From contig JAGGVT010000081.1 in assembly GCA_021157815.1 (NCBI GenBank), positions 1 through 23,275 on the forward strand: a DNA stretch of 23,275 bases, written 5' to 3'. How positions within the stretch are numbered: the stretch's first letter is position 1; every line of letters begins with the position of its first letter. The DNA is from a bacterium. GTDB lineage: Bacteria > JAJVIF01 > JAGGVT01. Shown one piece after another: positions 4,577 through 22,695 of this stretch. The position numbers and the translations under genes were made by a program. Below the pieces are notes generated by a model. It saw only the letters and a program-made list of their open reading frames with translations, did no database searches and was not told the DNA's origin.

Positions 4577-4690
4577 CCCCCCGGGAGATTCGGCACCCTT
4601 GCCGGAAACCCGAGTGCTTCAGCACTCCTGTTAAAAAAAACAGGGGGCTCTCCGCCCCCTTTCCGGCAAGGGTGCCGAAGCTCCCAGGGG
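4577..4690. repeat. Palindromic structured repeat, copy 1
   Basis: Outer arms of about 30 bp (4577-4608 and 4660-4690, core CGGCACCCTTGCCGGAAA) pair with few mismatches. The interior holds a perfect hairpin GAGTGCTTCAGCACTC (4612-4627), short arms CCTGTT/AACAGG and a GC hairpin with AGGGGGC/GCCCCCT stems (4642-4660). A second copy in opposite orientation lies at 18343-18450. There is no coding capacity, and it sits between two genes, directly after a terminator. It may be a REP-like or MITE-type dispersed element; the class is inferred. Confidence 0.8.
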
Positions 4691-4724
4691 AATGTATATT
4701 TTTTAACTATCCTACAGCATCAAA

Positions 4725-11968: not shown

Positions 11969-12199
11969 ATGGCTGAAATACTTGTTCGTAATCTGGATAA
12001 AAAAACCGTTGACCGGTTAAAAAAACGCGCGAAGAAAAAAGGGCGCTCGCTTCAAACAGAGGTCAAGCAAATTCTTGAACAGGCGGCGTCTATCGACATG
12101 GATGCAGCTCGCAAACTAACAAGCAATATACGCAGCGGTTTAAAAAGAAAGAAGTTCTCCGACAGCACCGAGCTAATCCGTGAGGACCGTGACAAATGA
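11969..12199 (+). CDS. vapB: VapB/FitA-like ribbon-helix-helix antitoxin
   Basis: A 76-residue protein with the FitA/StbC-type ribbon-helix-helix start (AEILVRNLDKKTVDRLKKRAKKKGRS), followed by a longer helix (LQTEVKQILEQAA) and a basic, flexible tail expected to wrap the toxin. ATG 11969 follows GGAGG (11957-11961). The family binds operator DNA as a dimer and neutralises the PIN RNase by its C-terminus. The palindrome at 11926-11954 is its likely target. The stop TGA overlaps the start of the toxin gene (ATGA), coupling translation. Confidence 0.9.
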   Translation: MAEILVRNLDKKTVDRLKKRAKKKGRSLQTEVKQILEQAASIDMDAARKLTSNIRSGLKRKKFSDSTELIREDRDK

Positions 12200-12618
12200 G
12201 CATCCTTGTTGTTGATGCATGCATTGGCGCAAAGTGGTTCTTCGAGGAGATATACACCGAACACGCTGTTCGGATTCTCGATGATAAATACACTCTTCAT
12301 GCTCCAGATATTTTCCTGATGGAAATAACAAATCTGTTGTGCAAGAGAATTCGTCGCAGGGAAATAACCAATAAAGCAAGTGATGAAATCCGAAAGGCGT
12401 TAACGCAACTCCCGGTCAATTATCATGATGTAAATCAGCTTCTTGATTCAGCGTACGAAATCGCGGTCACAACAGGCAGCAGTTTATATGACTGTGTTTA
12501 TCTCTCTCTCGCGATTTTATTGGAATGCCAAATGGTAACATCGGACAAGCGACTTGTTGTCAATATAATAAACACCCCGTTTAATAAGCATATCCTTTGG
12601 ATTGAGGATGTTGAATAG
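12196..12618 (+). CDS. vapC: VapC-like PIN-domain ribonuclease toxin
   Basis: A 140-residue PIN-domain protein, the usual VapC length. The acidic metal-binding residues are all visible: Asp7 in VVDACIGAKWF, Glu43 in LMEITNLL, Asp99 in SLYDCVYLSLA and Asp117 in VTSDKRL. VapC proteins are Mg-dependent RNases that cut tRNA or rRNA; the actual target cannot be told from sequence. The ATG overlaps the antitoxin stop by four bases. The active site looks intact. Confidence 0.92.
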   Translation: MSILVVDACIGAKWFFEEIYTEHAVRILDDKYTLHAPDIFLMEITNLLCKRIRRREITNKASDEIRKALTQLPVNYHDVNQLLDSAYEIAVTTGSSLYDCVYLSLAILLECQMVTSDKRLVVNIINTPFNKHILWIEDVE

Positions 12619-15017: not shown

Positions 15018-15094
15018 AAGTTAGCAGGTTAGCAAGTTAGTAAGTTAGCAGGTTAGCAAGTTAGTAAGTTAGCAGGTTAGCAAGTTAGCAGGTT
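15018..15094. repeat. 8-bp tandem array, copy 1
   Basis: Nine and a half units of AAGTTAGC / AGGTTAGC / AAGTTAGT. The first seven units follow a 24-bp higher-order period of those three. It begins five bases after the hpt stop codon. The reverse complement family recurs at 22613-22695, just after ndk. Confidence 0.95.
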
Positions 15095-18325: not shown

Positions 18326-18342
18326 ATTATGATACATTCACC

Positions 18343-18450
18343 TCCGGGAGCTTCTGCACCCTTGCCGGAAAAGGGCGTAAGCCCCTCCAGTTTTTTAACA
18401 GGAGTGCTGAAGCACTCGAATTTCCGGCAAGGGTGCCGAAGCTCCCGGCG
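18343..18450. repeat. Palindromic structured repeat, copy 2 (inverted)
   Basis: Outer arms CCGGGAGCTTCTGCACCC... (from 18344) and ...GGGTGCCGAAGCTCCCGG (to 18448) pair over 28 bp with one mismatch. The interior carries the hairpin GAGTGCTGAAGCACTC (18402-18417) and a second hairpin around GGGCGTAAGCCC (18373-18384). It matches the copy at 4577-4690 in reverse complement. It sits between the ends of two convergent genes and may act as a two-way terminator. Confidence 0.8.
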
Positions 18451-18467
18451 GATAAACTCATGCAGAT

Positions 18468-20772: not shown

Positions 20773-21159
20773 TTATTCCTTTTCCTTTAGCATTTCATGA
20801 ATATTCAATGGGGGCATAACAAGTGTCGGTAAAATCCCTATTCTTGATGTAATATTTGCAACTAATTCACGTGCATAAGGAACAATATATGCAGGAGCGT
20901 GAACTTTTGAAAATTCATCTAATGTCGGTTCTCCTTCACCTTCGCCTGAATAATAACCAATGTATGTGAAATTCAATATTATTGGAGATTCTGCAATCTC
21001 ATGAAAAAGGTCGAAAGTCACGTTTTGTACTAGCTGTTTATCATCAGGAAAACTGGATTTCACATCGATATTGAGTGCAATTGAAATCTCTTTTACATCA
21101 AAGGATATTATCTCAAAGTTCATTCTGCTAAGGATAATTTTCTCGATTTTTATACTCAT
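20773..21159 (-). CDS. SecB-like chaperone
   Basis: A 128-residue protein whose C-terminal half matches SecB: VPYARELVANITSRIGILP (93-111) against the SecB pattern FPYAR...SR...FP, followed by LVMPPLNIHEML (113-124), the LxPVNFDALF equivalent. The N-terminal half reads as SecB-like beta strands. SecB holds unfolded proteins; orphan SecB-like proteins beside toxin-antitoxin genes act as dedicated chaperones for the antitoxin (the TAC type). It is the third gene of an operon; AGAGGA overlaps the stop of the upstream gene, 14 bases away. Its place beside a HEPN protein rather than secretion genes favours the TAC role, which is an inference. Confidence 0.8.
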   Translation of the reverse strand: MSIKIEKIILSRMNFEIISFDVKEISIALNIDVKSSFPDDKQLVQNVTFDLFHEIAESPIILNFTYIGYYSGEGEGEPTLDEFSKVHAPAYIVPYARELVANITSRIGILPTLVMPPLNIHEMLKEKE

Positions 21160-21173
21160 AAATCGGAATCCTC

Positions 21174-21878
21174 TTAAGCTGCCAATGAGAATGATGCAGG
21201 TGGTGAGTCAATGGTTAATTCATCAATCTCTGGAGTCATCCATAGTTCATCAGTTTGGCAAATCAAAAATTGGATGAGAATATCATCGTGTTCTTGGTCA
21301 TGGAAGGTAGGTAGTGAAAACCAAGTACTTTTTGTATAATCTGTATACTCTTCATAGTGTGTCATTAGTTTTTCATATTCCATCGAGAAATCTTCTGGAT
21401 TAAATTCCTTCAGGCTCTGTTTGAAATATGAAACCATTTCTTCTATTCCTTTACGCACAATATCCAACCAATCCTCGTTAAATGTCTTATTGAATAGTTC
21501 ATATGATTCCCGACAGGATGGACGATGAATCTCATTTAGTTGTGCCATTACAGAAGCATATTGCTGTGACAATCTAAGATATTTTTCTTCCTGATACTCT
21601 TTCAAGCGACATTTCTTTGTGGCTTCTGGTGATAAACAATGCACCATAATTGAGTAACCGTTTGGATTAGCAAGGTTTTCTTCCAATTCCCAAACAAAGT
21701 CTTCAAATCTCTCGTAATTATCATCAGTAATCCAGAATGCTTCAAATCCATCAACATAATCAAAATCTTCATCGGGGCAACCTGTGCCTGTCCAAACAAC
21801 AATGGATTCAGTAAACTCAGATTCAATTCTCTGAATTACTTGAGCAATTAATTTCTCTTTTGAAATTCTTGAATTCAC
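21174..21878 (-). CDS. Unknown acidic protein between HEPN-like and SecB-like genes
   Basis: I do not recognise this 234-residue protein. It starts with GTG 21878, overlapping the TGA of the HEPN-like gene (GTGA), so the two are translationally coupled. It is strongly acidic. The N-terminal 85 residues look alpha/beta (SIVVWTGTGCPDEDFDYVDG at 25-44, then FEAFWITDDNYERFEDFVWE), the middle is helical, and the last 30 residues form a tail (TDELWMTPEIDELTIDSPPA) without obvious structure. If the operon is a toxin-antitoxin-chaperone set, this is the candidate antitoxin (or toxin), with the tail as a possible chaperone-recognition segment. A very degenerate nucleotidyltransferase is conceivable, but the GSxxxG motif is absent. 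Confidence 0.75.
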   Translation of the reverse strand: MNSRISKEKLIAQVIQRIESEFTESIVVWTGTGCPDEDFDYVDGFEAFWITDDNYERFEDFVWELEENLANPNGYSIMVHCLSPEATKKCRLKEYQEEKYLRLSQQYASVMAQLNEIHRPSCRESYELFNKTFNEDWLDIVRKGIEEMVSYFKQSLKEFNPEDFSMEYEKLMTHYEEYTDYTKSTWFSLPTFHDQEHDDILIQFLICQTDELWMTPEIDELTIDSPPASFSLAA

Positions 21879-22321
21879 TTTTTATTTATTTCCTTGTCAA
21901 TAATTAGAAAAACTCCATCTGCACGTCTCTGAATATCTTCTAATTCGCGAAATTCAACATCCATATCCTTATAATCGCCTTTTACTCTCTTTTCAGCAGC
22001 TTTCTTTAGTATTCTATGTACATTGAATTTATAATCCTTGATTTCGATCTTTGCTTGGTTATGCAATTCATTCTTTGTCCAAACATTTGGATTGGGATTA
22101 GGTTTCATTCCTTCTCTGGTTTGTCTTTCTTTATTTACACTAATCCCTCTAAATTCGAAAAGTGCAAAAAACGCTTGATACAGCGCATAATAATATCGTG
22201 ATGCGGCAGCATTGTAATGATTGTTTTGAAACGATACTCTACTAACTGCCAAATTCTCAGCACTTTTTTTCCAGTAAATCTTTGCTCTTTCCTCATTATT
22301 CATATCTAGGACATTATTCAT
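21875..22321 (-). CDS. HEPN-domain protein
   Basis: A 148-residue helical protein of the HEPN type. The first helices read YWKKSAENLAVSRVSF and NNHYNAAASRYYYALYQAFF (33-52), the usual HEPN pattern of a YYA helix after an amphipathic one. KRVKGDY...ADGVFLIIDKEI fits the last helices. HEPN proteins are often RNase toxins or defence components and pair with nucleotidyltransferases; the catalytic RX4-6H motif is not visible, so it may be inactive or act otherwise. The start could also be ATG 22303; neither has a strong ribosome binding site. It is the first gene of the minus-strand operon and overlaps the next by four bases. Confidence 0.75.
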   Translation of the reverse strand: MNNVLDMNNEERAKIYWKKSAENLAVSRVSFQNNHYNAAASRYYYALYQAFFALFEFRGISVNKERQTREGMKPNPNPNVWTKNELHNQAKIEIKDYKFNVHRILKKAAEKRVKGDYKDMDVEFRELEDIQRRADGVFLIIDKEINKK

Positions 22322-22446
22322 TATTCTAAAGTTCTAAAAAAAATGGTTCCCCTAAATGAAACCAGCGAAATGATAAATCATCTATTAATCATAATCAACC
22401 TCAAGTTTGTTTAGCAAGTAACCTTAACTCTTTCTACCCTGAATTC

Positions 22447-22559: not shown

Positions 22560-22576
22560 CTCGACGGGACGTCGAG
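22560..22576. repeat. Short perfect hairpin
   Basis: CTCGACG (22560-22566), loop GGA, CGTCGAG (22570-22576). It lacks a T-run on either side, so a terminator role is doubtful. Confidence 0.5.
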
Positions 22577-22612
22577 GACACAGCCGATGGGACATCAGCG
22601 CTACGAGTCAGA

Positions 22613-22695
22613 ACCTGCTAACCGACTAACCTGCTAACTTACTAACCTACTAACCTGCTAACTTACTAACCTGCTAACTTGCTAACCTGCTAACC
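22613..22695. repeat. 8-bp tandem array, copy 2 (inverted)
   Basis: Ten units of ACCTGCTA / ACTTACTA / ACTTGCTA type plus ACC. On the ndk coding strand it reads GGTTAGCAGGTTAGCAAG and starts five bases after the ndk stop, the same family and placement as the array after hpt at 15018. Confidence 0.95.

Follow-up and report, generated by a model that had tools for sequence, protein, structure and literature searches.

A SecB-linked operon with a HEPN protein as the likely toxin: a candidate toxin-antitoxin-chaperone system

A stretch of bacterial DNA of 23,275 nucleotides (GenBank assembly GCA_021157815.1, contig JAGGVT010000081.1; the whole stretch is called the window below) contains a tight minus-strand operon coding for a HEPN protein, an acidic middle protein and a SecB-like protein (genes 1 to 3, Table 1). 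We read this operon as a toxin-antitoxin-chaperone (TAC) system with a HEPN toxin, a two-part antitoxin, a degron-tipped tail guarded by the chaperone and growth arrest triggered by phage. We assign this reading a probability of roughly 0.83. The TAC architecture of the operon is well supported and of an already known kind; for a HEPN toxin in such a system, no precedent was found in the open-licence literature.

The GTG start codon of gene 2 lies inside a GTGA that overlaps the stop codon of gene 1. Only 14 bases separate gene 2 from gene 3, whose ribosome-binding site (AGAGG) shares bases with the TAA that ends gene 2. Strand, coordinates and spacing of these three packed genes are as an earlier sequence-only reading of the window had described them. 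The same reading had called the block AT-richer than its surroundings, which is borne out by a GC content of 0.34-0.35 compared with 0.45-0.52 in the flanking genes. The operon is bordered by a gene for a clostripain-family lipoprotein and by ndk, and it pairs a basic HEPN protein with an acidic partner. The hairpin upstream of gene 1 may mark the end of an upstream transcript or may act as an attenuator.

Table 1. Positions of the operon genes, their parts and nearby elements in the window
Feature	Position	Strand	Remarks
Gene 1, HEPN protein, proposed toxin	21875..22321	-	148 aa, pI 9.5; PF05168
Gene 2, acidic protein, proposed antitoxin	21174..21878	-	234 aa, GTG start, pI 4.3
Gene 2, N-terminal domain (about residues 1-110)	21549..21878	-	Common to chaperone-less paralogue L002
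Gene 2, C-terminal extension (about residues 111-234), proposed chaperone-addiction segment	21177..21548	-	
Gene 2, Leu-Ala-Ala codons	21177..21185	-	C-terminal ClpX-type degron by sequence
Gene 3, SecB-like chaperone	20773..21159	-	128 aa; PF02556, PADLOC PD-T4-9_C
Terminator-like hairpin and T tract, just upstream of gene 1	22344..22364	-	Consensus scan only
44-bp dispersed repeat	22563..22606	.	blastn; 89-93% identical to repeats flanking the two-gene paralogue of the host

The assignment of gene 3 agrees between two independent libraries of sequence profiles (as distinct from a structure model), as expected from the earlier proposal that the third protein is SecB-like. This protein scores 27.2 bits against PF02556 (SecB; cut-off 26), and its best PADLOC match is PD-T4-9_C (8.9e-9), the model for CmdC of the CmdTAC system (PMC9519451). 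Chaperones from the other HEPN loci described below match the same model with values of up to 7.9e-16, and the chaperone of locus L005 is 44% identical to gene 3. The chaperone tree is poorly resolved and does not unite the HEPN-linked proteins. No second PF02556 match was found in the host genome (assembly 90.9% complete). Since gene 3 is the sole SecB found in this genome, no separate export SecB shares its work. By analogy with known TAC systems, gene 3 is likely a dedicated chaperone of the gene 2 protein.

The earlier suggestion that gene 1 encodes a HEPN-fold protein is supported by a PF05168 score of 22.6 bits, just above the curated Pfam cut-off of 22. This HEPN family is its only match; no HigB, HicA, MqsR or CmdT family was hit. 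A profile built from five HEPN homologues matches the solved HEPN structures 9xbd, 9xbc and 2hsb. PF05168 scores are 34.6 bits for the homologue of L023 and 22.5 bits for that of L037. The proteins of L002 and L005 fall below the Pfam cut-off, and family membership is weak for that of L021, which has no Pfam match and is assigned by alignment. The canonical Rx4-6H motif is absent from gene 1, which reads R112-VKGD-Y at this place with no histidine; the L021 protein carries R-RVSDY-H. The alignment shows H87, R112 and D116-Y117 to be invariant across the five homologues. Members of PF05168 with an aspartate in place of the histidine and a histidine elsewhere have been described (PMC3710099). 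H87 was considered as an equivalent of the alternative histidine of AF0298 and rejected, since the alignment places the two residues in different columns. RNase activity of gene 1 is uncertain because the protein has no canonical Rx4-6H and its invariant histidine lies elsewhere; with H87 and the AF0298 histidine in different columns, catalysis is unproven. HEPN proteins act as toxins in HEPN-MNT systems (PMC3710099). By analogy, the toxin is likely to be the gene 1 product, a basic protein that is encoded first, like the toxins of HigBAC and CmdTAC.

To survey the arrangement in other genomes, we searched 480 distinct genomes (G000-G479) with a chaperone profile built at first from two sequences and later from four and then five. 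The order HEPN, middle protein, SecB-like protein was found in 6 of them (G000, G001, G338, G387, G023 and G432), and the same gene order stands at L005/L018, L021, L037, L023 and L049. At L005, which is identical to L018 from a Lake Pavin sediment metagenome-assembled genome, the middle protein has 172 residues. The phylum-level searches around G338 and G023 exclude each other as well as the genome of the window, so that three phyla are involved. The three genes thus co-occur in order in distant genomes, as the sequence-only reading required of its proposal, and because the arrangement recurs in three phyla it is not a product of chance. The same searches recovered known TAC systems as controls, the type of each locus being assigned by reading the neighbouring proteins: HigBA at L022 and L046, HicAB at L024 and L025, MqsRA at L039, L041 and L051, and CmdTAC at L061 and L062. 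Export SecB was also recovered (L047 and L048). Being the only SecB found in the host, gene 3 could serve export and stand behind an unrelated pair of a HEPN protein and its partner by mere coincidence. We consider this extremely improbable in view of the order kept in three phyla, the match to a CmdC-type profile and, as described below, a tail and an LAA or VAA end that occur only together with the chaperone.

In the near-identical pair G023 and G432, the three genes have dN/dS values of 0.21-0.36, based on few changes. Compared with G023, the G432 copy (L049, 521-829) has a frameshift close to the end of the HEPN gene, and its middle and chaperone genes are intact; either the toxin is broken or the assembly is in error. 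Chaperone searches of viral contigs and phages gave no match. Among plasmids they returned CmdTAC (Acinetobacter indicus, Candidatus Thiodictyon), a TAC of HicA type (Deinococcus) and two weak matches in Neisseria records, and the HEPN proteins had no match in plasmids. Three other loci were observed in passing. In G199, an ADP-ribosyltransferase-like reading frame is followed by a short chaperone-like stretch (L043, 1825-2352), possibly a broken CmdTAC, and at L026 and L042, in two genomes, a SecB-like protein follows a methyltransferase-like gene with no toxin or antitoxin.

The middle protein falls into no family of Pfam or PADLOC and into none of NCBIfam above cut-off, and it has no relative among solved structures. 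Its homologues are found at L002, in the same genome, and at L005, in the same class as the host; searches of viral contigs, genome contigs and plasmids for further relatives of gene 2 returned none. Identity with the L002 protein amounts to 51% over residues 3-110. Profile comparisons of middle proteins between the three phyla, with 2-3 sequences a side, were not significant. As homology across phyla is therefore not demonstrable, the evidence for one antitoxin family reaches no further than the class of the window. We regard gene 2 as the likely antitoxin, of an undescribed family.

An AlphaFold2 model of the N-terminal domain is weak (pLDDT 64, pTM 0.55) and predicts the order helix-strand-strand-helix-strand-helix; a model of the full-length protein (pLDDT 50) was discarded. 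At this model confidence, the N-domain matches KH/BolA-like, OsmC-like and nucleotidyltransferase structures, all at background level, and for this reason we claim no fold. These matches bear on the possibility that the operon is a HEPN-MNT system in disguise, in which gene 2 would be a diverged minimal nucleotidyltransferase (MNT) that silences the HEPN protein by AMPylation and the SecB-like protein would be an accessory. MNTs are indeed the classical partners of HEPN proteins, and the matches of the weak model include the MNTs 5yep, 7aer and 6m6u and the putative nucleotidyltransferase 1ylq (Z 6.3). However, these matches do not rise above those to unrelated folds and their rmsd is poor. 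The GSx...DxD motif occurs in none of the middle proteins, no MNT family of Pfam matches at E values of up to 1, and the MNT gene almost always comes first in HEPN-MNT pairs (PMC3710099), whereas here the HEPN gene does. On this balance a disguised HEPN-MNT system is very improbable.

The C-terminal extension of the middle protein varies in length and sequence at L005, L021, L037 and L023 (about 124 residues in the window, about 60 at L005) and is absent at L002. All five distinct chaperone-bearing HEPN loci encode a middle protein that ends in [LV]AA, with LAA in the window, L005 and L023 and VAA in L021 and L037; the same end is found in 0 of the 95 other long reading frames (150 aa and above) of the fetched loci. 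From its sequence, we propose that this end is a ClpX-type degron. In CmdTAC, the antitoxin CmdA carries a terminal LAA and its degradation depends on ClpP; this terminus is said to be common to other TAC antitoxins (PMC11618068). The antitoxins of our CmdTAC control loci L052 and L061 likewise end in LAA. A tmRNA tag of the host was sought for comparison, but no convincing tmRNA was found in this genome.

The host genome also holds the paralogue L002, the only two-gene homologue that we found. It consists of a HEPN gene and a gene for a middle protein of 111 aa, compared with 234 aa in the window, which stops where the tail would start, has no LAA and is followed by no chaperone gene. What sets TAC antitoxins apart from their homologues in two-component systems is known to be an extension at the C-terminus, which varies in both length and sequence (PMC5105189). 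Since the tail and the LAA or VAA end are present with the chaperone and absent from chaperone-less L002, the tail goes with the chaperone, as the logic of TAC systems predicts. The tail-less locus could also be a decayed TAC instead of a natural two-gene form.

From this organization and the precedents, we infer toxicity, binding, chaperone dependence, antitoxin degradation, the trigger and the role in defence as follows. The HEPN protein would act as the toxin and most likely be an RNase or some other translation inhibitor of the HEPN type, and the first 110 or so residues of the gene 2 protein would bind and neutralize it. The C-terminal extension would form an unstable segment tipped by the LAA degron. 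The chaperone would hold this extension, hide it from ClpXP and let the antitoxin fold. On infection, the chaperone would be diverted, probably by a phage protein present in abundance, in the way that the T4 capsid protein diverts CmdC. By this analogy, with the chaperone occupied by a phage protein, ClpXP would gain access to the tail; degradation of the antitoxin would then free the HEPN toxin, and growth would stop before phage progeny are made.

The genomic neighbourhood bears on what such a module may be for. Restriction-modification genes adjoin its relatives in G023, G432 and G387 as well as the two-gene paralogue in G000 (L064), with type IIG enzymes next to L023/L049 and the host paralogue. 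Near L037 lie a C5 methyltransferase with an unrecognized partner reading frame and a serine recombinase. No defence genes adjoin the operon of the window itself. The sequence-only reading had placed the block between repeats; this proved right for the upstream side, where an 8-bp tandem array (22612-22695) accompanies the 44-bp repeat, and did not hold for the downstream side. An operon of the same TAC architecture could serve stress response or element maintenance instead of phage defence. The lack of an adjoining defence gene in the window speaks for such a role, an AT-rich block beside repeats also fits a mobile addiction module, and the TAC of Mycobacterium tuberculosis is induced by stress (PMC5105189). 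Against this stand the protection from phages by CmdTAC and MqsRAC (PMC9519451, PMC11618068) and the restriction-modification genes beside relatives in several genomes. We hold a role outside phage defence to be unlikely, and the HEPN TAC module is probably anti-phage.

Several further repeats were noted. L002, on contig C134 of the host, is flanked by direct repeats of 143 bp (1201-1343 and 2326-2467; 91.6% identical), whose 44-bp core is the element found upstream of the window operon; the 143-bp repeats are possibly dispersed elements that have to do with how such modules move. The 8-bp array shares its unit with another at 15018-15094, 7.5 kb away and in opposite orientation (90% identity over 76 bases). 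A pair of 120-bp inverted repeats (4578-4697 and 18332-18451) is 86% identical, and its second copy is partly palindromic (18341-18451). The window also contains a reading frame of 140 aa (12196-12618) that by eye resembles a PIN-domain (VapC-like) protein and is possibly a second toxin gene.

In TAC systems the chaperone serves as a sensor of infection or stress. If the present reading is true, a HEPN toxin with its own antitoxin family would show that gating by a chaperone is portable, a control unit that natural selection has here added to another toxin superfamily. One genome with both forms, with and without tail and chaperone, offers a natural experiment on the role of the tail. For annotators, a simple search rule follows: a HEPN gene, next to it a gene whose product ends in LAA or VAA, and after that SecB. 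More tentatively, and at odds below even, SecB-like chaperones may have joined different HEPN-antitoxin pairs on several independent occasions through the addition of a degron-tipped tail. HEPN TACs would then be a separate, widespread class of chaperone-gated defence systems, and the antitoxin N-domain a new fold family that neutralizes HEPN proteins with an alternative active site without AMPylation.

Described TAC systems carry HigBA, HicAB or MqsRA pairs (PMC5105189), and another described TAC toxin is the ADP-ribosyltransferase CmdT (PMC11618068). The main text of a 2013 survey of HEPN proteins does not mention SecB (PMC3710099). Searches of the open-licence PMC literature, a body that leaves aside subscription papers and preprints, for HEPN together with SecB or TAC found no HEPN TAC; within it, the earlier remark that no described TAC has a HEPN partner stands. 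HEPN-MNT systems resemble the operon of the window in combining a HEPN toxin with an adjacent small antitoxin. They differ in that the window operon has no nucleotidyltransferase motif, places the HEPN gene first, gives the antitoxin a tail linked to the chaperone and has a SecB-like gene in third place. The HigBA, HicAB and MqsRA TACs, for example Rv1955-1957 of M. tuberculosis, share with it a variable C-terminal extension of the antitoxin and a dedicated SecB-like chaperone. In contrast to the window, their toxins are HigB, HicA or MqsR and their antitoxins belong to the HigA, HicB or MqsA families, and gene 2 matches none of these. CmdTAC (PD-T4-9) differs in its toxin CmdT, an mRNA ADP-ribosyltransferase with no such match in the HEPN protein of gene 1, and in its short antitoxin, which has no detectable similarity to gene 2. 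It resembles the window in the order of toxin, antitoxin and SecB-like chaperone, in the profile family of the chaperone, in the LAA end of the antitoxin and in the defence setting. Two marks of TAC systems go beyond those named in the sequence-only reading, the LAA or VAA end of the middle protein at every chaperone-bearing locus and the tail-less, chaperone-less paralogue of the host. The likeness to HigBAC and CmdTAC drawn in that reading is apt.
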